A stretch of DNA of 64,000 bases, from positions 682,001-746,000 of the forward strand of contig NZ_FWFR01000002.1 of the NCBI RefSeq assembly GCF_900172325.1, given 5' to 3'. A program made the translations under genes and the position numbers. This DNA comes from Oceanibacterium hippocampi (lineage in GTDB: Bacteria; Pseudomonadota; Alphaproteobacteria; Sneathiellales; Sneathiellaceae). The notes under the pieces were generated by a model. The model made no database searches. It worked only from the letters and a program-made list of their open reading frames with translations, and had not been told where the DNA came from. Positions 14,654 through 25,905 of this stretch are shown here, one piece after another (the stretch's first letter is position 1; each line of letters opens with the position of its first letter).

Positions 14654-16312
14654 TCATGCGCCGGCGCGCTGGGTCTGTTGTTTGTTCCGGCCGACCGGCG
14701 CCGGCAGGCCGAGACGTTCGGCCGCCATTTCGCGCAGTCTGAACTTCTGCACTTTCCCGGTGCCCGAGGTCAGCGGGAACGTATCGACGAAGAAGACATG
14801 GCCCGGCATCTTGAAGCCGGCCAGCTTCGGCTTCAGGAAGGCGATCAGTTCGTCCGCGGTCAGACCGGCGCCATCCTTCAGGATGACGAACACCGCGCCG
14901 ATCATGTCGGCCAGCGGATCGGGCACACCGACGACCGACGACGCGGCGACCGCCGGATGGCGGTTGACGACCTGCTCGATCTCCTCCGGGAAAACGTTGA
15001 AGCCGCGCGACTTGTAACCGTCGCCCAGGCGCCCGAAAAGGCGGACCCGGCCGGTCGCGTCCAGTTGCCCGAGATCGCCGGTCCGGAACCAGCCGTCGTC
15101 CCTCAGGCAGGCGGCGGTTTCCGCCGGCTTCTTGTAGTATCCAGCCATCGTGCAATAGCCGCGCACCCAGATCTCGCCCGGACTGTCGGGCGGCAGTTCG
15201 TCGAGCGTCTCGCTGTCGACGATCTTGATCTCGACATCGGGCAGCGCCCAACCCTGAGTCGTGTGGCGAATATCGCGCGGATCGTCCCAGCGGTTGCGCG
15301 TCGCCACCGTGGTGGTTTCGGTCAGTCCGTAGCCGGTCATCACGCCGGGAACGCCGATGACGTCGGCGACGGCGTCGAGGACCGCCGGATCGATCGAGAG
15401 CGTGTAGGAGATCCGCAGCGACGACCGGTCATACTTGTCGAAATCCGGATGCCTGATCAGCTGATCGACGGAGAGCGCGAGCAGATGGATGCCGGTGACC
15501 TTCTCCTTCTCGATCGCGCGGAGACAGGCGCCGGCATCGAACTGCTCGCCGATCACCTGCCGGGCGCCACGAACGAGATACGGCAGCACGCCGTTAAGCG
15601 TCGCCATGGAGCCGAACAGCGGAATCGCCATGTAAAGGACGTCGTCCTCGGTGAGATCGACGCGATCGCCGATATCCCAGGCCTTCCGCCAGACGCAGTG
15701 GGTGATCATCGCGCCCTTGGGCAGGGCCGTGGTCCCGGAACTGTAGACGATGCTTCCGGGTTTGCTGCCGTCGCGTTCCATCGGCGGCATCGGCAAATCG
15801 GCCGGACCGGGCTTCGACCAGTCGAGAGCGCCCGAATACCGCTCATCGAACGGGTCGACGGCGATCACATAGGCGAGTTCGGGCAATTGTTCGCTGCCGA
15901 GCTTGCCGGGCTCTCCGGTCAGAAGGGCGGGCGCCAGTTCGCTCAATTCGCCGAGAACATCGCGAAACGCACCGTCGCCCGGCACGATGACCGCCCGGCT
16001 GTCCGACTGCGCCAGCTGGTAGGCGAGTTCATCCTTCCGGAGACGGGTATTGAGCATGACGGCGACCAGGCCCATCTGCGAGGCGCCCAGCCAGTACCAG
16101 ATGAATTCAGGCCGGTTCGGCAACAGGATCGCGACCTTGTCATCCGGCCGCAGCCCCAGCGAGGCGAAGCGTGCCGACGCCCGGTCGACCTGGACCTTCA
16201 CATCGGCAAACGAGTAGCGCTCGTCGCGAAAGACGACCGCCTCACGGTCGCCGTAACGCTCGGCGACAAGTGAGATGCTCTCCGCGTATGTCAGATCTCG
16301 GAACGGATTCAC
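14654..16312 (-). CDS. AMP-forming acyl-CoA synthetase
   Basis: A 552-residue adenylate-forming ligase with IVYSSGTTALPKG (P-loop), GYGLTETTT, TGDLG and the C-terminal GTGKVQKFRLRE containing the catalytic Lys. It makes a CoA thioester from an acid, ATP and CoA. The start is a GTG at 16312, preceded by GAGGGG about 7 nt upstream. The frame stays open to 16498, but that extension is Arg-rich and has no recognisable domain, so it is excluded. It is the second CoA ligase of the cluster and sits upstream of a putative acid carrier; MocR is divergent. Confidence 0.91.
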   Translation of the reverse strand: MNPFRDLTYAESISLVAERYGDREAVVFRDERYSFADVKVQVDRASARFASLGLRPDDKVAILLPNRPEFIWYWLGASQMGLVAVMLNTRLRKDELAYQLAQSDSRAVIVPGDGAFRDVLGELSELAPALLTGEPGKLGSEQLPELAYVIAVDPFDERYSGALDWSKPGPADLPMPPMERDGSKPGSIVYSSGTTALPKGAMITHCVWRKAWDIGDRVDLTEDDVLYMAIPLFGSMATLNGVLPYLVRGARQVIGEQFDAGACLRAIEKEKVTGIHLLALSVDQLIRHPDFDKYDRSSLRISYTLSIDPAVLDAVADVIGVPGVMTGYGLTETTTVATRNRWDDPRDIRHTTQGWALPDVEIKIVDSETLDELPPDSPGEIWVRGYCTMAGYYKKPAETAACLRDDGWFRTGDLGQLDATGRVRLFGRLGDGYKSRGFNVFPEEIEQVVNRHPAVAASSVVGVPDPLADMIGAVFVILKDGAGLTADELIAFLKPKLAGFKMPGHVFFVDTFPLTSGTGKVQKFRLREMAAERLGLPAPVGRNKQQTQRAGA

Positions 16313-16767
16313 GACGCTGCCCCTCAGGCCCTTGCCAATACTCCTGGGTCGGCCGGGACGCGCTTCAGCAAATCGAACGACTGTACGTTCATCGTTTCGC
16401 GGCACATCCGGAACGGGCCGGCGAAATCGAGCTTCGGCGTTCAGCCCGGCAACCGACACGCTTTCACCGACGGAGCCAACCTTGACATTCGAAGGCAAAA
16501 GCGCTGTTTACACGAGGGCGCGAGGCGCAGGGCGCGAAAGATGCACGCGATACGCGCATTCGGCCCGGCCCGCGAAATTTGCACCTCTTCCGTACGAACG
16601 ACTCGCCATCTCGATGACGACACATTGCAGAAGATTGCCCATTTTCTCGGTTTCTGATATATTTCCCGAGTTTAGCTAGGGTTACAGAGTATTCTTGCGT
16701 CCCTCGCCCTTCGTTGTCACATCATATGGCGGTTTCAATTAGGGCGCAATGTCACAATCAAGGTGGT
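16313..16767. other. Intergenic region, no gene recognised
   Basis: 455 nt between the divergent CoA ligase and MocR genes. Frames are open on both strands in the first 190 nt, but their residues are Arg/Ala-rich and match no domain. From about 16620 the base composition becomes AT-rich; CTCGG and CCGAG arms around a TTTCTGATATATTTC loop are visible near 16644-16670. Otherwise I see nothing to annotate. Confidence 0.5.
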
Positions 16768-16808: not shown

Positions 16809-18224
16809 ATGGAGGAACCTCTATTGAGCCTTGACCGAGTCATGTGGGTACCTGACATCTCGACGATCGGCGGACCGCGATATCTTGCCCTGGCGAGCGC
16901 GATCGCGGAATCCATCAACAACGGCGAACTTCCGGCCGGGGCGCAACTGCCGCCGCAACGGGACCTGGCCGAAAAGCTCGGCGTTACCGTCGGGACGGTG
17001 GGGCGCGCCTACATGGTGGCCAAGAAACGCGAGCTGGTCTCGGGCGAAGTCGGCCGCGGCACCTTCGTGCGCGGCCACGCAGGCAAGAGCACATTCGGCA
17101 ATTACATCCCCGAACGCAAACCCGGCATGATCGACCTGGCGTGCTACCGCATTCCCGTCGACGAGATTCCCGAAACGATCTCCGGCGTCATCGCCGATGT
17201 CGCCGATCACACGGTCCTGCTGCCGCTCATCGACTATCCGCCGCCAGCCGGCTACATCACCCACCGGACGGCCGGCGCCACCTGGATCAAGCGCAGCGGC
17301 CTCGACGTGCCGCCCGAACAGGTCATCGCCTGCAACGGCGGACAGCAGGCGATCCTGACGGCGCTCTTTGCCCTTTCCGGCCTTGGCGGTCCGGTCCTCA
17401 CCGAGCAGGTGACCTATTCGGGCTTCAAGTCCCTCGCGGCACTTCAGAACCTCGAACTGGAAGGGGTCGAGATGGATGCCGAGGGCATGATCCCGGAAGC
17501 CCTCGACGAGGCCGCCAAGACATCCGGCGGCATGATCGTCTATATCCAGCCGACGGTTCAGAACCCGACCGGTCATTCGATGTCCGAGAAGCGGCGCGAA
17601 AAGATCGCCGCGGTGGCCCGGGCCAACGATCTCATCCTGATCGAGGACGATGTCGCCGCCGCCGGCCTGACCGATCGCCCCATGCCGATCGCGACCCTTG
17701 CGCCCGAACGGACGATCTACATCACCAGCCTGTCCAAATGCGTCAGCCCGGCCCTTCGCGTGGGCTTCATGGCGGCGCCGCCGAAGCTCGCCGAACAACT
17801 GTCGAACACGCTTCACTCGCTCGCGCTCGCGATGTCGCCTTTGACCCTGGAAGCGGCGTCGCTGCTGATCATGGGGGGCGGCGCCGCGGCCATCGCCGAA
17901 CAGAACACCCGCGAACTGGCGCGCCGCCACGTGATGGCCCGGGAGGAACTGGGCGGCCTGGATCTGCGCAGCCACCCGGCGGCTTTCTTCTCCTGGCTGC
18001 AGTTGCCCGGGCACTGGACGTCGGCGGAATTCGCCGAGACGGCTCAGAAATCCGGCGTTTCGGTCGCGCGCGCCGAACATTTCCATATCGGTTCGACGGA
18101 GCCGCCGCGCGCGGTCAGGATATCCCTGAACCCGCAGGCGAGCGTCAACGTGCTGCTCGACGGTCTGCGCATTCTCCGCCGGATCGCCGAGGAAAAGCCC
18201 AGCCCGCGCCTGGCCGTCATCTGA
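16809..18224 (+). CDS. MocR-type transcriptional regulator (GntR HTH fused to aminotransferase-like domain)
   Basis: A 471-residue regulator. Residues about 25-90 form a GntR winged helix (GELPAGAQLPPQRDLAEKLG), and the rest has the fold-type I aminotransferase layout: NPTG at 252-255, an acidic EDD near 279-281 and TSLSKC with the PLP Lys at 310. The PLP domain of such proteins senses amino compounds or PLP adducts. The ATG has no ribosome binding site, while GGAGGA lies 6 nt before a TTG at 16824, so translation may begin five codons later. It is central in the cluster and the likely controller of the ATTG/CAAT sites (inference). Confidence 0.9.
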   Translation: MEEPLLSLDRVMWVPDISTIGGPRYLALASAIAESINNGELPAGAQLPPQRDLAEKLGVTVGTVGRAYMVAKKRELVSGEVGRGTFVRGHAGKSTFGNYIPERKPGMIDLACYRIPVDEIPETISGVIADVADHTVLLPLIDYPPPAGYITHRTAGATWIKRSGLDVPPEQVIACNGGQQAILTALFALSGLGGPVLTEQVTYSGFKSLAALQNLELEGVEMDAEGMIPEALDEAAKTSGGMIVYIQPTVQNPTGHSMSEKRREKIAAVARANDLILIEDDVAAAGLTDRPMPIATLAPERTIYITSLSKCVSPALRVGFMAAPPKLAEQLSNTLHSLALAMSPLTLEAASLLIMGGGAAAIAEQNTRELARRHVMAREELGGLDLRSHPAAFFSWLQLPGHWTSAEFAETAQKSGVSVARAEHFHIGSTEPPRAVRISLNPQASVNVLLDGLRILRRIAEEKPSPRLAVI

Positions 18225-18338: not shown

Positions 18339-19541
18339 CTAGACGCCCATCCGGCCGATGATCGCGACCGAGCAGACATTCTGGTGCGGCGCACCGCCCA
18401 GATTGTGTGTCAGGCCCAGTTTCGGGCTCTCGACCTGGCGCTGATCGGCCCGCCCGAGCATCTGCAGATAGAGCTCGTAGACCATGCGCAGGCCGGAAGA
18501 CCCGATCGGGTGTCCGAAACATTTCAGGCCGCCGTCGATCTGGCAGGGCAGGTCGCCGTCGGAATCATAGAAGCCGTCGAGCACGTCCTTCACGGCACCG
18601 CCCTCGGGCGACAGGTAGAGGTCTTCCATGGTGACCAGTTCGGTCACCGAGAAGCAGTCATGCACCTCCGCGAGATCGATCTCCTTCCGGGGATTGCGGA
18701 TGCCCGCCTCCTCGTAAGCCCGCTTGCTCGCGATCCGTGCCGTCATGAAATGGCTGCCGTCCCAGGAATTGTGGCCGGCCTCGGTACCGTTCGAAACCGA
18801 GAGCTGCAGCGCCTTGACGGTGATCATGTCCTTCTTGCCGAGCGCCTTGGCGATCTCGGGCGTGGTGACGATGGCGCAGGCGGCGCCATCGCTGACGCCG
18901 CAGCAATCGAAGATGCCGAGAGGCTCGGCAACCGTCGGCGCGCGCAGCACCTGTTCCTCGGTGATCTTGTTGCGAAGATGGGCCTTCGGGTTCTTGGCCC
19001 CGTTGGCGTGGCTTTTCACCGAGATGTGCGCCATCGCCCGCTTGAGCTCGGCCGGGTCGATGCCGTGCTTGGTGCTGTAGGCGGTCGCGAGCTGGGCGAA
19101 GGAGCCCGGCGCCGAGTAGTTCGCCCACCACATCGAGTTGAGCGTGCCCCGGCTGCGCTGCGGCAGGCCGCCGTAACCGGTATCCTTGAGCTTCTCCACG
19201 CCAAGCGCCAGGGCGATATCGCAGGCGCCCGAGGCAACGGCATAGACCGCGCCGCGCAGCGCTTCGGATCCGCTGGCGCAGAAATTCTCGACCCGGGTCA
19301 CCGGGATGAACGGCAATCGCAGGGCGACGGAAAGCGGGATGCCGCCCTTGCCGACATGGATCTCCTCGATGGCCGTCGCCAGCCATGCCGCCTGGATCTC
19401 CTTGTAGTCGATCCCGGCATCGGCGATGCATTCCTCGAAGGCCTCGACCATGAGGTCTTCCGAGTCGCAATCCCAGCGCTCGCCGAATTTCGAGCAGCCC
19501 ATGCCGATGATTGCGACTTTGTCCTTGATACCGCTAGCCAT
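18339..19541 (-). CDS. Thiolase-family protein (archaeal/SCPx type) paired with an HMG-CoA-synthase-like/DUF35 protein
   Basis: A 400-residue thiolase-fold protein. The nucleophile motif VENFCASGSEA places Cys at 88; His residues lie in HDCFSVTE (294) and CFGHPIG (344). The second active-site Cys motif of classical thiolases (CIGGGMG) is absent and the C terminus reads GGAPHQNVCSVAI, as in archaeal and SCPx-type thiolases. Its start overlaps the stop of the upstream 488-residue gene by 8 bp. In archaea a thiolase, an HMG-CoA synthase and a DUF35 protein form one complex that channels acyl-CoA; the same three parts meet here. It could cleave or form a 3-ketoacyl-CoA, or act as an aldolase like the steroid Ltp2 proteins. 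Confidence 0.88.
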   Translation of the reverse strand: MASGIKDKVAIIGMGCSKFGERWDCDSEDLMVEAFEECIADAGIDYKEIQAAWLATAIEEIHVGKGGIPLSVALRLPFIPVTRVENFCASGSEALRGAVYAVASGACDIALALGVEKLKDTGYGGLPQRSRGTLNSMWWANYSAPGSFAQLATAYSTKHGIDPAELKRAMAHISVKSHANGAKNPKAHLRNKITEEQVLRAPTVAEPLGIFDCCGVSDGAACAIVTTPEIAKALGKKDMITVKALQLSVSNGTEAGHNSWDGSHFMTARIASKRAYEEAGIRNPRKEIDLAEVHDCFSVTELVTMEDLYLSPEGGAVKDVLDGFYDSDGDLPCQIDGGLKCFGHPIGSSGLRMVYELYLQMLGRADQRQVESPKLGLTHNLGGAPHQNVCSVAIIGRMGV

Positions 19542-21000
19542 CGATCGCCCCCTCGCCCGCCTGCACTGGCGCGGCTTTCCAGAAATAGCGCCGGAACCCG
19601 CGCTGATTGTCGAAGTCCTTGATCCGGAACATCATGCGGACGTCCTGTCCGACCGCGACGCCTCCGACATCGGCGTCCGTGAAATTCGCGAGAAACCGGC
19701 CGCCACCGTCGAACTGGATCATGCCGTAGTGAAGCGGCGGATCCGGGCAATAGGTCAGGTGGTCCGCCGACCAGGTCATGATCTTTGCCGGCACATCCGC
19801 GAAGCGGAACGGCTTCTGCGTGTTCGTCTTGTTGCAGTTCGGGTTGACGCAAACGCGCGAGCGCGGGAACTGGTGCGTGCCGCAGGCATCGCACTCGCCG
19901 CCGACGAGGCCGAACAGCATGTCCCGGCGCCGGTAGAGCTGGGTCAGCGCCGTCTGGTTGTCCAGTTCGGCACGCATCCCCTTTTCCCGGTCGACCAGTT
20001 CGTTGAACGACATGAACTTGTTGTAGTTCGTCTCTTCCCGCCGCCGCGCCAGATAGCCGGTAACGCCGTTTGCCGGCTTGCGGTCGGCGATCCGTTCGGT
20101 GGCCCGGAAGACCAGGACGTCGCAGCCCTGCCCGAACGAAGCGACGACCAGCACCTGGCCGGGCGCGGCATCCTCGAGCGCGCGCGACAGCAGCACGAGC
20201 GGATGGGCACAGCCGGTCATGCCGACGGCGCCGTCAAGCGGGTCCGCGAGCTTCTCCGGGGCGATCCCGGTCATCTGCGCGATCTTCTCGGGCACCCGTT
20301 TCAGTGTCGCGGGCGCGATCAGGACATCGACCGCGCCACCGTCGATCCCGGCCTTCTCCAGCGCCGCCGAGATCGCCCGCGGCATGATCTTCAGATAGCC
20401 CTCGTCGCGGATCCAGCGCTCTTCCCAGTTGTAGTCGAAGTCCCTGTTCTGTCCCCGATAGTGATCGACGAAGTCGACCGACGTGGAATGACGCGCCAGG
20501 AGCTCGGCAACAACGTCGTCAGTGCCGACCGTGAAGGCCGCGGCGCCGTCCCCGAAGATCATCTCCTGCTGGGCCGCGGCCCGCGTGCGCCGGGTTTCGC
20601 TCGCGACGACAAGGATGTTCCCGGTCGTTCCGCCGGCATCGAGCGCGGCGACCAGCGCGGCTGTTCCCGCCCGTTGCGACGAGGTGATGTCGATCGTCGA
20701 AAGATCCTCGTCCAGGTCGAGCGCCGCGGCGACGATCCCCGCGTTCTGGCGATCCGCGAAGGGCAGCGTGGTCGAGCCGAGGTAGATCGCGGCGAGCGGC
20801 CCGCCGCTCTCGCACGACAGGCAGTCGCGGGCGGCCTCGACCGCGAGCGTCACGGCGTCCTCGTCCCAGTTGCAGATGCTGCGCTCGCCCTTGGCAAGCC
20901 CGCGCAGTCCCGGCTGTATCCAGCCGTTGGCCTCTGCGATGCTTTTCCGCGACAAGCGCAGTCGCGGGATATAGCCGCCGAAGGCTGTCAGTCCGATCAT
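19534..21000 (-). CDS. HMG-CoA synthase-like domain fused to DUF35 zinc-ribbon/OB-fold; catalytic Cys replaced by Gln
   Basis: A 488-residue fusion. Residues 1-305 have the KAS III/HMG-CoA synthase fold, closest in pattern to archaeal synthases. The nucleophile segment normally reads ACKAGTAA; here it is SSQRAGTAA, so Gln109 stands where Cys acts, and the catalytic Glu of GSES is Thr (GSTT, 75-78). Residues 365-475 form a DUF35 module with a Cys4 zinc ribbon (C370, C373, C384, C389) and an OB-fold that binds CoA esters. The start chosen is ATG 21000, with GAGGGA 5-6 nt upstream; ATG 21012 is also possible. It is translationally coupled to the thiolase. It may be a scaffold or a decarboxylase-like variant; true HMG-CoA synthesis is unlikely. 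Confidence 0.87.
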   Translation of the reverse strand: MIGLTAFGGYIPRLRLSRKSIAEANGWIQPGLRGLAKGERSICNWDEDAVTLAVEAARDCLSCESGGPLAAIYLGSTTLPFADRQNAGIVAAALDLDEDLSTIDITSSQRAGTAALVAALDAGGTTGNILVVASETRRTRAAAQQEMIFGDGAAAFTVGTDDVVAELLARHSTSVDFVDHYRGQNRDFDYNWEERWIRDEGYLKIMPRAISAALEKAGIDGGAVDVLIAPATLKRVPEKIAQMTGIAPEKLADPLDGAVGMTGCAHPLVLLSRALEDAAPGQVLVVASFGQGCDVLVFRATERIADRKPANGVTGYLARRREETNYNKFMSFNELVDREKGMRAELDNQTALTQLYRRRDMLFGLVGGECDACGTHQFPRSRVCVNPNCNKTNTQKPFRFADVPAKIMTWSADHLTYCPDPPLHYGMIQFDGGGRFLANFTDADVGGVAVGQDVRMMFRIKDFDNQRGFRRYFWKAAPVQAGEGAIDG

Positions 21001-21122
21001 AGCTTCCCTCATGCCCCTTCCGGCCCGACGTCCGCGAAGACCCAGGCGGCAGCAGCCGCCGAATGGGTCTGCCCTGCACGCCGCAACCGGGTCAAACTGT
21101 CAGGTCCGACCTTTGCATCGAT

Positions 21123-21199: not shown

Positions 21200-21661
21200 T
21201 CATTTCTTCAGTTCGTTGCCCGCCTCACGATAGACGGTGCTCCGCGCGATGGAGAAGACATGCTTGCCGTCGGCATCCTCGCCACGGATCTCCTGGTGCA
21301 GGATCTCCATCCGGCCCGACTTGCCCGACTTTTCCTGGACATCGCGGAAGATCACCCGGCAGGTCAGCACATCGCCGGCCACGACCGGGCGCGAATAGGT
21401 GAAATGCTGCTCGCCGGCCAGGATCCGCCGGCGGTCGAGATCGCGCGTCCAGACCGGTTCCTCGGGCGGATAGAAGGTAACCGGGAAGGTCGGCGGCGCG
21501 ATGATCCCGGCGTAACCCTGCGCCTGTGCGGCCGCAGCGTCGCGGTATACCGGGTTCGGATCGCCGATCGCCTCGGCAAACTTGCGGATCGCCCCCTTCT
21601 CCACCTCGACCGTGTAGGGGCCGAATTCCGAACCGATAAGCGAACGGTCGATCTCAGTCAT
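21200..21661 (-). CDS. MaoC_N/FAS1-type dehydratase domain protein (HadA-like)
   Basis: A 153-residue hot-dog protein. The pattern IGSEFGPYTVEVEKGAIRKFAEAIGD then NPVYRD and IAPPTFPVTF is that of the MaoC N-terminal dehydratase family (HadA-type). These subunits usually need a second hot-dog partner carrying the catalytic Asp/His; the MaoC protein at 6282-6719 could supply it (inference). It starts 9 nt after the acyl-CoA dehydrogenase gene and is co-transcribed with it. Confidence 0.87.
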   Translation of the reverse strand: MTEIDRSLIGSEFGPYTVEVEKGAIRKFAEAIGDPNPVYRDAAAAQAQGYAGIIAPPTFPVTFYPPEEPVWTRDLDRRRILAGEQHFTYSRPVVAGDVLTCRVIFRDVQEKSGKSGRMEILHQEIRGEDADGKHVFSIARSTVYREAGNELKK

Positions 21662-21670
21662 GACGCACGC

Positions 21671-22825
21671 TCAATCCTTCTTCCACTGGCTGATCTTTCG
21701 ATCGAGGATCCGCGCCGCGATCATGTTCTTGTGAATCTGCATGGTGCCGCCGTAAATCGAGCCGCCGCGGACCTCGGCGTAGCGGTGCGCCAGCGGATAT
21801 TCCTTGGTGTAGCCGTTCGCCCCGAGGATCTGGATCGCGTCGTCGCAGATCTCCTTGGCCGCCTTCGCGACGAAGACCTTGGCGATCGAGGTTTCGAGCG
21901 CTTCCGGCAGCCCGGTCGCCTGGGCCGTCGCGGCGGCCCGGTAAGTCAGCAACTGCGCCGCGTCGAGCTTGACCCGCATGTCCGCGAGCATCCACTGGAT
22001 GCCCTGGAAATCGCAGATCTCCCGGTTGAACTGACGCCGCTGTTGGGAATAGTCGAGGGCATATTCGTATGACGCCTGTGCCGAACCCAGCATGCGGGAG
22101 ATGCTGCCGAGCCGCTCGGCGTTATAGACGCTGATCAGTTTCCCGAAGGCATTGCCGTCGAGCAGGATGTTCGATTTCGGCACCCGGCAATCGTCGAAAT
22201 AGAGCTCGAACAGCAGTTCGTCCGCCATGTTGACGGTGCCCTTCGAATGCTGGAAGCCCGGCGCGTCGTGCGGCACGATCACGGCGCCGATGTCGGACGC
22301 CCGCCCGGTCGTGCCGAAGCGGCAATAGAGCACCGTGTAGTCGTTGACGTTGACGGCGCTGACGAACTGCTTCGAGCCGTTGATGACGACCTCGTCACCG
22401 ACGATTTCCGCGCGTGTCCGCATGGCGGTCGCCGCCGAGCCCGCCTCCGGCTCGGTCATGCCGATGGAAATGCCGATCTCGCCCGAACAGATGCCGCGAA
22501 TGTATTTCTCGCGCTGCTCCGCCGTGCCGTAGGCCTCGATCGCGCCGCAGGCGCCGGTCGAGGTGCGGTGCGCCAGGCCGCCACAAAGCGGCGAGCAGGC
22601 ATGCAGCGCCTGGATCACCAGCAGGGTGTCAAGGAGCGGCAGCCCGACGCCGCCAAGCTCCGCCGGCATGTTGAGACCGAGGAGGCCCTGCTCGGCCATG
22701 ACCCGCCGCAGCGCCCGGACGCCCTCGACGCTGCCATCCGCGGCATAGGGTTCGAGCACGCGGCGATAGGCCTCACGCGCGGCCTCCACGAGCTCACGCT
22801 GACGATCGGTTAACGCGAAATCCAC
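21671..22825 (-). CDS. Acyl-CoA dehydrogenase
   Basis: A 384-residue FAD-dependent dehydrogenase. TEPEAGSAATAMRTRAE and INGSKQFVS are typical middle-domain motifs, and GANGYTKEYPLAHRYAEVRG is the usual C-terminal block. The classical catalytic Glu in IYEGT is replaced by Gly (SIYGGTMQI). A Glu in NAERLGSISRM sits where isovaleryl-CoA dehydrogenase-type enzymes place their base, so activity is still expected, perhaps on a branched or cyclic acyl-CoA. It is divergent from the flavin reductase gene across an AT-rich promoter region. Confidence 0.91.
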   Translation of the reverse strand: MDFALTDRQRELVEAAREAYRRVLEPYAADGSVEGVRALRRVMAEQGLLGLNMPAELGGVGLPLLDTLLVIQALHACSPLCGGLAHRTSTGACGAIEAYGTAEQREKYIRGICSGEIGISIGMTEPEAGSAATAMRTRAEIVGDEVVINGSKQFVSAVNVNDYTVLYCRFGTTGRASDIGAVIVPHDAPGFQHSKGTVNMADELLFELYFDDCRVPKSNILLDGNAFGKLISVYNAERLGSISRMLGSAQASYEYALDYSQQRRQFNREICDFQGIQWMLADMRVKLDAAQLLTYRAAATAQATGLPEALETSIAKVFVAKAAKEICDDAIQILGANGYTKEYPLAHRYAEVRGGSIYGGTMQIHKNMIAARILDRKISQWKKD

Positions 22826-23021: not shown

Positions 23022-23537
23022 GTGACGGATGTATCCGCGGAAGACTTCAAGATGGGAATGCGGCAGCTCGCGGCCGCGGTGAACGTCATTTCCGTGATGG
23101 CGGACGGCTCGCCGCACGGCATGCTGGCGACAGCGGTCTGCTCCGTATGCGCCGCACCGCCGACGCTGCTCATCTGCGTCAACCAGAGCGCCTCGATGCA
23201 TCGGGCGATCCGGGAGCGCGGGCATTTCGGTGTCAGCGTTCTCGCCGAGCACCAGTTCGAAACCGCCCATCATTTCATGTCGAAGGTCGCGAGCGAGCGC
23301 TTCACGACCTGCGACTGGGACACGCTCGCGACCGGCGCACCGGCGCTTGCCGGTGCCCTGGTGAATTTCGACTGCGAGGTCGAATCCGAGGTGAATGTCG
23401 GAACGCATACCATCTATTTCGGCCGCGTCGTGGCGCTCCGCCGCGCGGAGAACGGCCCGCCACTGCTTTATCACGACGGCAACTACGCGGCGCTCGGCCA
23501 GACGCCGCTGCCGGGCATGGCCGCGAAACAATGCTGA
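23022..23537 (+). CDS. Flavin reductase-like domain protein (two-component monooxygenase reductase)
   Basis: A 171-residue protein of the flavin reductase (HpaC/HsaB-like) family: MRQLAAAVNVISVMADG, HGMLATAVCSVCAAPPTLLICVN and a conserved GTHTIYFGRVVAL near the C terminus. It supplies reduced FMN or FAD to an oxygenase. The best partner is the group D-type protein at 6734-7897. The GTG at 23022 is chosen; an ATG ten codons later (23052) is possible. It is first of three plus-strand genes and precedes the KsdD-like flavoprotein by 28 nt. Confidence 0.88.
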   Translation: MTDVSAEDFKMGMRQLAAAVNVISVMADGSPHGMLATAVCSVCAAPPTLLICVNQSASMHRAIRERGHFGVSVLAEHQFETAHHFMSKVASERFTTCDWDTLATGAPALAGALVNFDCEVESEVNVGTHTIYFGRVVALRRAENGPPLLYHDGNYAALGQTPLPGMAAKQC

Positions 23538-23565
23538 TCGGCGCCGATCGCGGAAGTCCGGCGCC

Positions 23566-25152
23566 ATGAGGCTGTCGCAGATCGAGCGCTGGGACCTCGA
23601 AACCGGGGTCCTGGTCATCGGCTTTGGCGCGGCGGGCGGGGTCGCGGCGATCGAGGCGCACGACCACGGCTCCGAGGTCATGGTGCTCGAGAAAATGGCC
23701 TTTCCGGGCGGGCTGTCGGCGGTCTCCGCCGGCGGCATCCGGGTCTCGGACAATGCCGACGAGGCATTCCGCTATCTGCGGGCGATCTGCGAGGATCGCA
23801 CCCCGGAGGACATGCTCCGCGTGCTCGCCGACGGCATGGTCGAGGTGCCGGACTACCTGCGCCGTCTCGCCGCGCTCAACGGGGCCACGATCAAGGTCAC
23901 GCCGGCGCTCGGCAACTATCCCCTGCCCGGCTGCGAATCGCTCGCCTATTGCGAGGTTTCCGTCGTTCCAGAACTCGAGAACGGCGACCGCTACCACGCG
24001 ACGCACGCGACCAAGAACGGCGGCCGGCTCTTCAAGCTGCTGGAGGACAATGTCGAGAGCCGCGGCATTCCCGTCCACTACCGCACGGCGGCGAAGGAAC
24101 TGATCGTCGACGGCGACGGCGCGGTCCGCGGCGTGGTCGCGGAATCGGACGGCCGGATGCTGAATATCCGGGCCGCCCGGGCGGTAATCCTGACCTGTGG
24201 CGGCTTCGAGAACGACGACGAGATGAAGCGGCAGTATCTCCAGGCGAAGCCGGTCCTGACCGGTTCGTTCGCCGGGAATACCGGTGACGGGATCCGCATG
24301 GCCCAGGCGGCCGGCGCCGACCTCTGGCACATGTGGCATTACCACGGCCCCTACGGCATGAAGGATCCGACCGGCGAGTTCCCCTTCGCGCTGTATCTGA
24401 AGGCGGTGCCGATGTGGACGCCCGGCTATCCCGACAGCGTCTCCGACCTCGGCATCGTCGACAACAAGGGCAAGCCGCTGTCGCAGAAGGCGCTCGCCAG
24501 GATGGCGTGGATCGTTGTGGACCAGGACGGCCGGCGCTTCATGGACGAATACCCGCCCTATCCGGGCGACATGGGCGTCCGTCCGTTCGATGCCTACGAT
24601 TCGAAGCGCCAGAAGTTCCCCCGCATTCCCGCCCACATGATCTTCGACGAGAACGGGCGGAAGATGTACGCCATGGGCCGCACGGCTTACAACGATCCGG
24701 ACGCGCATTTCGACTGGAGCGCCGACAACCTCGAGGAAGTCGCGCGCGGCATCTTCGAGAAGGCGGACAGCCTCGAGGAACTCGCCAACCTCATGAACGT
24801 CGACCCCGGGACACTGGCGAAGACGATCGAGGACTGGAACGCCCATGTCGCCGCCGGCTTCGACCCGGATCACGGGCGGCAGCCCGACACGATGGTCCCG
24901 ATCGACACGCCGCCCTACTATTTCGGTCGTGTCTACCCGGTGGTGATCAATACCCAGGGCGGCCCCCGGCACAATGTGCGCCAGGAAATCGTCAACCCCT
25001 TCGGCCAGCCGATCCCGCGCCTCTATGCGGCCGGCGAACTGGGCAGCGTTTTCGGGCATCTCTATGTGAGCGGCGGCAATCTCGCCGAATGCGTCGTCGG
25101 CGGCTGGATCGCCGGGCGCGAAGCCAGCGCCCTCGAGGCTTGGGAGACGTAA
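23566..25152 (+). CDS. FAD-dependent oxidoreductase, fumarate reductase/3-ketosteroid dehydrogenase-like
   Basis: A 528-residue FAD_binding_2 protein. The dinucleotide motif VLVIGFGAAGGVAAIEA and an LEKMAFPGG stretch mark the FAD domain; QGGPRHN and LYAAGELGSVFGHLYVSGGN form the C-terminal FAD block. Relatives introduce or reduce C=C bonds next to a carbonyl (KsdD, urocanate or fumarate reductases). It starts at ATG 23566; frames further upstream lie in the flavin reductase gene. Its stop is immediately followed by the enoyl-CoA hydratase start, showing tight coupling. A ring-desaturating role fits the cluster but is inferred. Confidence 0.88.
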   Translation: MRLSQIERWDLETGVLVIGFGAAGGVAAIEAHDHGSEVMVLEKMAFPGGLSAVSAGGIRVSDNADEAFRYLRAICEDRTPEDMLRVLADGMVEVPDYLRRLAALNGATIKVTPALGNYPLPGCESLAYCEVSVVPELENGDRYHATHATKNGGRLFKLLEDNVESRGIPVHYRTAAKELIVDGDGAVRGVVAESDGRMLNIRAARAVILTCGGFENDDEMKRQYLQAKPVLTGSFAGNTGDGIRMAQAAGADLWHMWHYHGPYGMKDPTGEFPFALYLKAVPMWTPGYPDSVSDLGIVDNKGKPLSQKALARMAWIVVDQDGRRFMDEYPPYPGDMGVRPFDAYDSKRQKFPRIPAHMIFDENGRKMYAMGRTAYNDPDAHFDWSADNLEEVARGIFEKADSLEELANLMNVDPGTLAKTIEDWNAHVAAGFDPDHGRQPDTMVPIDTPPYYFGRVYPVVINTQGGPRHNVRQEIVNPFGQPIPRLYAAGELGSVFGHLYVSGGNLAECVVGGWIAGREASALEAWET

Positions 25153-25905
25153 GTGTCGGAAATGCAAGATTACCTGATCGTCGAGGATCTCGGCCGGACC
25201 CGGATCCTCACGATCAATCGGCCCGACAAGCTCAACGCGTTGAACCGTGCCCTCGTCGAGGGCCTGACCGCGGCGCTGGTCGGCGCCGAGCGGGATCCGG
25301 CGATCGTGAACATCCTTCTGACCGGCTCGCCGAAGGCATTCTCGGCCGGCGTCGATCTCAAGGAAACCGCGAAACTCGAGAACGAGCCCCAGTTCGAAGC
25401 GCACGCCGGGCGGGTCGCCGAACTGTTCCTCACGCTGAACCGCATGAGCAAGCCGACCTTCGCCGCCGTCGAGGGCTATGCGCTGGGCGGCGGCTGCGGC
25501 CTCGCGCTCGCCTGCGACATCATCGTCGCCGGCAGCGAGGCGACCTTCGGTTACCCGGAAATTACCCGCGGCCTGATGCCGGCGCTGGTGACGCCCAACC
25601 TCGTGCAGCGTGCCGGCCGCCGCAAGGCCTTCGAGTTCCTGGCCTTCGGCCGTCGCTACAGCGCCGCCGACATGATGGCTGCCGGCCTCGCCAATGCCGT
25701 TGTTCCGGCCGGCACGGCAAGGGACGAGGCCCTGCGCTGGGCCGAAAGCTCCGGTGCCGGCGATCCGCAGATCTTCGCCTGGATCAAGGAACTCATCACC
25801 GTCAGCGAGACCGACGGCCTCGAGGCCGGCCTCAACCGGGCGCGCGAACTGAACGCCACGTCCCGTCGCCTCGCCCGATCCCGGAAGGGTGGCCCAGACG
25901 CCTGA
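25153..25905 (+). CDS. Enoyl-CoA hydratase/isomerase (crotonase family)
   Basis: A 250-residue crotonase-fold enzyme. The oxyanion region is GYALGGGCGLALACDI, and both catalytic glutamates of a hydratase appear to be present (E136 in FGYPEI, E161 in AFEFL). It would add water to an enoyl-CoA or cleave a ring 1,3-diketone. The GTG start directly follows the TAA of the upstream gene, with GGGAG 6 nt before it. A strong hairpin terminates the operon at 25908-25942. Confidence 0.91.
   Translation: MSEMQDYLIVEDLGRTRILTINRPDKLNALNRALVEGLTAALVGAERDPAIVNILLTGSPKAFSAGVDLKETAKLENEPQFEAHAGRVAELFLTLNRMSKPTFAAVEGYALGGGCGLALACDIIVAGSEATFGYPEITRGLMPALVTPNLVQRAGRRKAFEFLAFGRRYSAADMMAAGLANAVVPAGTARDEALRWAESSGAGDPQIFAWIKELITVSETDGLEAGLNRARELNATSRRLARSRKGGPDA

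Follow-up and report, generated by a model that had tools for sequence, protein, structure and literature searches.

Results

The window analyzed here, a 64-kb stretch of Oceanibacterium hippocampi DNA (64,000 nucleotides), carries two genes that overlap by 8 bp (19534-19541), as the earlier note on this DNA had reported; both are on the minus strand, a point absent from the note. The gene lying upstream in the direction of transcription (19534..21012) encodes P0001, a protein of 492 amino acids that was recognized from profile matches and an AlphaFold2 model as a fusion of an HMG-CoA-synthase-like half with a DUF35 half, and the second gene (18339..19541) encodes P0002, an SCP2-type thiolase of 400 amino acids, which scored 703.5 bits against the NCBIfam model PRK06157 (NF004810; cut-off, 403) and is predicted to have thiolase activity. 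The pair had been delimited as 18339-21000, of which the left limit stands and the right one is to be corrected to 21012.

The pair is preceded on the same strand by the genes of an acyl-CoA dehydrogenase (21671..22825; 384 amino acids; PF00441, PF02770, and PF02771), which is the first of the cluster, and of a MaoC/FAS1_DH-like half-hot-dog protein (21200..21661; 153 amino acids; PF13452, 119 bits), the transcription order on the minus strand being acyl-CoA dehydrogenase, MaoC-like protein, P0001, and P0002. In the MaoC-like protein, a half hot-dog of the FAS1_DH/HadA-like kind, GDPNPVY stands in place of the GDxNPxH of catalytic hydratases, a motif that was found in no protein of the 64-kb window, and the MaoC-like protein may represent a non-catalytic half, with its partner encoded elsewhere. 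A MocR/GntR-type protein encoded on the plus strand (16809..18224; PF00392 and PF00155), for which the nearest NCBIfam model was EhuR at 423.9 bits, below the cut-off of 480, is a possible local regulator, and an AMP-binding acyl-CoA ligase encoded beyond it on the minus strand (14654..16498; 614 amino acids as listed, with an uncertain start) may be linked to the cluster. A divergent cluster beside the pair (23022-25905, plus strand) encodes a flavin reductase, an FAD_binding_2 oxidoreductase, and an enoyl-CoA hydratase, and could serve in the same degradative pathway as the pair.

A second complete pair of a fused gene and a thiolase gene was found in the same genome (L004; G000:C16:602451-605101), also with Gln at the position of the catalytic Cys, the fused proteins of the two pairs being 55% and the thiolases 73% identical. 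Because this second pair and more than 500 homologous loci carry the same design, it represents more than a chance arrangement. Outside both fused pairs, the genome encodes four more DUF35 zinc ribbons (G000:C7:215389, C7:258904, C7:311126, and C6:962191), which are likely partners of other thiolase-fold enzymes.

The synthase half of P0001 (residues 5-341; 19990..21000, minus strand) is a thiolase-superfamily domain of the HMGS/KAS III-like type, as indicated by NF003274 and by a structural match to 6ESQ_I. Its predicted fold is that of an archaeal-type HMG-CoA synthase, the catalytic Cys, Glu, and His of which it lacks, and it also stays below the cut-offs of the models of that enzyme, with 170 bits over residues 5-339 against the archaeal model NF003274 (equivalog cut-off, 244) and 123 bits against TIGR00748 (cut-off, 353). 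Alignment with the HMGCS of 6ESQ placed SSQRAGTAAL against ACKAGTAGI in the Cys region, LGSTTLPF against VGSESHPY in the Glu region, and IAPATLKR against FHQPNGKF in the His region. The Cys is thereby replaced by Gln113 (codon 20674..20676, minus strand), the Glu by Thr in the pair Thr81-Thr82 (codons 20767..20772, minus strand; GSTT for GSES), and the His by Pro234 (codon 20311..20313, minus strand), so that all three catalytic residues are gone. When bona fide FabH and MvaS were aligned to the same profile, their Cys fell at column 113 and their His at column 234; since true enzymes place these residues in exactly those columns, the substitutions are not alignment slips. The earlier note had read SSQRAGTAA for an ACKAGTAA-type site and GSTT for GSES, and realignment, by which it had said that its reading could be refuted, bore this out by placing neither a Cys nor a Glu at the active site; the loss of the His makes the damage wider than the note had described. 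These alignments support the view that the pseudo-synthase half, with Gln113 in place of the catalytic Cys, would be unable to form the acyl-Cys intermediate, as had been proposed.

The AlphaFold2 model of P0001 was built from 53 sequences, with a pLDDT of 88 and a pTM of 0.91. Its best structural match by VIA-align was 6ESQ_I, the HMGCS subunit of the archaeal complex (Z 45.5, 1.8 A over 333 residues), followed by PhlA (9SKH, Z 44.3; 5M3K, Z 42.7) and the MucABC subunit (9VBO, Z 41.4), and lower matches were obtained with free-standing HMG-CoA synthases (Z 36.8) and FabH (Z about 34-35). As the 6ESQ, PhlA, and MucABC chains outrank the free-standing synthases and FabH, the closest structures are subunits of multi-component thiolase-fold complexes.

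The C-terminal half of P0001 (residues 356-484; 19561..19947, minus strand) was confirmed to be a DUF35 module with a rubredoxin-like zinc ribbon and an OB fold, both PF12172 and PF01796 being matched above cut-off; the zf-ChsH2 and OB_ChsH2_C matches above the Pfam cut-offs cover residues 369-463. The zinc-ribbon cysteines are C374, C377, C388, and C393 (19834..19893, minus strand), of which C374 is present in 90 and the other three in 79-81 of 92 dereplicated homologues. About one-tenth of the family has only the first of these cysteines (C, T, S, and then K or N; for example, L013:1471-2961), and zinc has probably been lost from the DUF35 half of these proteins, judging from the missing ligands. 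The ribbon is degraded still further at the loci of Sphingopyxis and Novosphingobium (L121 and L129).

In the literature searched, no paper was found to name the fused family or assign a function to it, and it is a large, widespread, and uncharacterized family. A species-level scan with one genome per species gave at least 561 confirmed relatives, of which 80 were retained. In addition, the fused protein had matches in 39 plasmid records, with a query coverage of at least 80% in 35 of these, including records from Sphingobium, Novosphingobium, Variovorax, Azoarcus, Rhodococcus, Mycobacterium, Streptomyces, and haloarchaea; Actinomycetota and archaea were sampled through plasmid records only. 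Full-length homologues numbering 126 were aligned, and the 92 left after dereplication at 90% span Pseudomonadota, Actinomycetota, and one haloarchaeon. Cys was absent from position 113 in all 126 and in all 92, and Gln occupies the position in 71 of the 92. The haloarchaeal fused relative (L126:4001-5413), in which the fused gene comes after the thiolase gene, has Thr for the Cys and a VHQP motif that retains the catalytic His, possibly representing a less degraded state.

The frequency of Gln113 would be consistent with a decarboxylase similar to KSQ domains, another role suggested by the earlier note, in which Gln113 would stabilize the carbanion derived from a malonyl-type CoA ester. However, the remaining homologues have L (7), M (5), R (4), A (2), or a single P, G, or H at this position, the conservation of which ranks at the 42nd percentile. 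Because the Gln is variable, Gln113 is not a catalytic residue of the KSQ type. Moreover, decarboxylating KS domains keep the catalytic His, whereas its position is occupied by Pro in 80 of the 92 homologues, which have not retained the KAS III Asn either. A decarboxylase of this kind is very improbable, and it was rejected on the grounds that the Gln is not conserved and the His is lost, the combination of a conserved Gln with a His not being found.

Other residues of the pseudo-domain are strongly conserved, including R199 (92/92), T81 (90/92), H270 (85/92), and H184 (83/92), and this pattern may leave room for ligand binding or other chemistry there. The pocket might, for example, have taken on a new reaction or come to bind a regulatory ligand through these four residues, which we regard as quite unlikely: an Arg equivalent to R199 is present in archaeal HMGCS, we know of no catalytic motif composed of such a set, and a subunit interface would equally explain the conservation. 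By the alignments of the family and of its partner thiolases, described below, the pseudo-synthase half is free of selection for synthase chemistry, one subunit being predicted as catalytic and the other not.

In the thiolase, the catalytic residues are intact. The nucleophile Cys88 (NFCASG; codon 19278..19280, minus strand) was invariant in all 108 adjacent partners and in all 54 left after dereplication. The HDCF motif (residues 294-297; 18651..18662, minus strand) was found in 106 of 106 partners, with H294, D295, and C296 in 54 of 54 dereplicated sequences, and His344 of the GHP motif (residues 343-345; 18507..18515, minus strand) in 102 of 102 partners and 53 of 53 dereplicated ones; N380 was likewise without exception among the 54 dereplicated partners. 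These residues are kept even in the partner thiolases of Rhodococcus, Mycobacterium, Streptomyces, and Haladaptatus, at 37-51% identity. The closest solved chains to P0002 were 7YVY and 6ESQ_A, and comparison with the thiolase chain of BbsAB gave a phmmer E value of 3.9e-40 and 144.7 bits with NF053628.

The two genes are also tightly associated. Of the 123 loci with enough room, 108 have a thiolase gene directly after the fused gene and in the same orientation, and the other 15 comprise 11 in which a thiolase gene follows at a greater distance along that strand and 4 that are too short to judge. Genome-wide, PRK06157 thiolases and fused genes co-occur 1:1 in a set of 96 genomes, with two of each in the present genome (G000) and in G064, the exceptions (G017 and G024) being located at contig ends or else within partial genomes. 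A PRK06157 thiolase and a PF01796 domain are also present in Caulobacter vibrioides. The pairwise distances of the HMGS-like domain, DUF35, and thiolase are correlated with a Pearson r of 0.91-0.92 between the chains and 0.92 within the fused chain, which supports joint inheritance and is no proof of contact, as common ancestry alone could produce such values. At some loci (L051 and L116), an amidohydrolase-like gene, the product of which starts with VENR[IL]VHDADSHLMEL, sits between the fused gene and the thiolase gene. The loss of all synthase catalytic residues could be taken to mean that the fused gene is decaying and without function, which is scarcely credible and was rejected on the basis of conservation, given that its reading frame is intact over several phyla, that R199, G264, G267, and W478 are among its invariant residues, and that it is strictly paired with the thiolase.

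The genes found near the pair across loci encode acyl-CoA dehydrogenases, MaoC proteins, HSD4-type SDRs, CoA ligases, and CoA transferases, as in L037, where the order is dehydrogenase, MaoC, fused gene, thiolase, SDR, and ligases, and these neighbors point to beta-oxidation-like degradation. The neighborhood is variable, and since in many loci no recognized gene other than the pair is conserved, it is unlikely that one substrate is shared by all.

Discussion

An HMGS-like subunit without catalytic residues has a precedent. As early as 2010, PhlA was termed an inactive member of the thiolase superfamily, beside the active PhlC and the DUF35 protein PhlB, and the same paper pointed out fusions of DUF35 to thiolase-superfamily domains (PMC2954200). 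The structure of PhlABC indicated that the chemistry is carried out by PhlC only, with all three subunits required, and that the Cys and Glu present in archaeal HMGCS are missing from PhlA (PMC6392133). An inactive HMGS-like subunit within a thiolase/DUF35 complex is therefore already described (PMC2954200; PMC6392133), a precedent that the earlier note had missed. In our alignment, the Cys site reads GKSG in PhlA and SENSG in the MucABC chain, neither of which has a Cys.

P0001 and P0002 resemble PhlA, PhlB, and their partner, as in the PhlABC Friedel-Crafts acylase (5M3K) and CsATase (9SKH), in having the synthase fold without Cys and Glu, linked to a DUF35 module and a thiolase-fold partner with an intact Cys. 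They differ in that PhlA and PhlB are separate proteins, whereas P0001 is a single chain that is about 26% identical to PhlA, and in that PhlABC C-acylates phenols, whereas the fused pair is found in contexts of acyl-CoA degradation. The MucABC acyltransferase of Streptococcus macacae (9VBO) likewise contains an HMGS-like subunit, with Glu instead of Cys at the nucleophile position, although its subunits are separate, its host and pathway are different, and the identity is 22%. The kinship to the archaeal thiolase/HMGCS/DUF35 complex (6ESQ) that had been noticed from the sequence is supported by the same three modules, a related thiolase, and the best match to the synthase half; however, the archaeal synthase, which produces HMG-CoA, has retained its Cys, Glu, and His, whereas P0001 lacks all three and is fused to DUF35. 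In the archaeal complex, residues of all three proteins bind CoA (PMC6392133). The benzoylsuccinyl-CoA thiolase BbsAB (7PXP) also partners a related thiolase chain with a DUF35 subunit in degradation, but it is a two-part assembly of DUF35 and thiolase, for which the text consulted mentions no HMGS-like subunit.

DUF35 proteins partner not only the thiolase BbsB but also the aldolases Ltp2 and Sal (PMC12329534), and they partner acylases as well (PMC6392133). The pair could accordingly catalyze another C-C reaction, either retro-aldol cleavage as in Ltp2/Sal or C-acylation as in PhlABC/MucABC, with the fused protein as a non-catalytic partner, and the HMGS-like subunit of PhlABC without an active-site Cys, as well as the SENSG of the MucABC chain, would fit such a role. 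This remains a minority reading, to which we give a small chance: the nucleophile Cys, HDCF, GHP, and NxGG were found in every thiolase partner examined, whereas in Sal the working motif is YDCY (PMC12329534), and the adjoining genes are those of acyl-CoA degradation and not of polyketide synthesis.

Taken together, the pair probably forms a two-chain thiolase/HMG-CoA-synthase/DUF35 complex in which the thiolase alone is catalytic. Through Cys88, HDCF, and His344, P0002 would split a 3-oxoacyl-CoA, or make one in the reverse direction, in a reaction of the Claisen type. P0001, in which a pseudo-synthase resembling PhlA is fused to a DUF35 resembling PhlB, would assemble with the thiolase, close its CoA-ester site, and probably set the substrate specificity, while contributing neither acyl-Cys nor aldol nor decarboxylation chemistry of its own. 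With the pair following the genes of an acyl-CoA dehydrogenase and a MaoC-like protein, the reaction would most likely be thiolysis within a degradation that resembles beta-oxidation, with a branched, cyclic, or aromatic acyl-CoA as the likely class of substrate. We infer the physical complex, the role at the CoA site, the direction of the reaction, and the substrate from the lost Cys, Glu, and His on one side, the intact thiolase site on the other, and the gene context; the previously suggested role of the synthase half as a scaffold holding the CoA ester is in this sense the best reading.

With regard to evolution, a FastTree phylogeny with long branches and a distant root placed PhlA together with MucABC and the archaeal HMGCS, which has the Cys, and separated the fused family from them, with a support of 0.98, the haloarchaeal fused protein (L126) being unplaced. 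As a lead from a weakly rooted tree, this suggests that the catalytic Cys was lost more than once and that its loss in the fused family was independent of that in PhlA. A bolder proposal would be that the family of P0001, inactivated independently of PhlA, uses the emptied pocket with T81, H184, H270, and R199 in a new ligand-binding or catalytic role to gate a degradative thiolase, the chance of which we consider rather slim.

For the family as a whole, annotations of the fused proteins as "hydroxymethylglutaryl-CoA synthase" or "3-oxoacyl-ACP synthase III" are probably wrong in functional terms. The pair with a catalytically dead synthase is compact, comprising only two genes, and is convenient for studying the reason that an inactive synthase is retained beside a thiolase, as well as the contribution of DUF35 and the synthase pocket to substrate choice. 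The dead HMG-CoA-synthase subunit of PhlABC is no quirk of one antibiotic pathway; in fused form, it is an obligate companion to a thiolase of the degradative type and is found in bacterial genomes by the hundreds.
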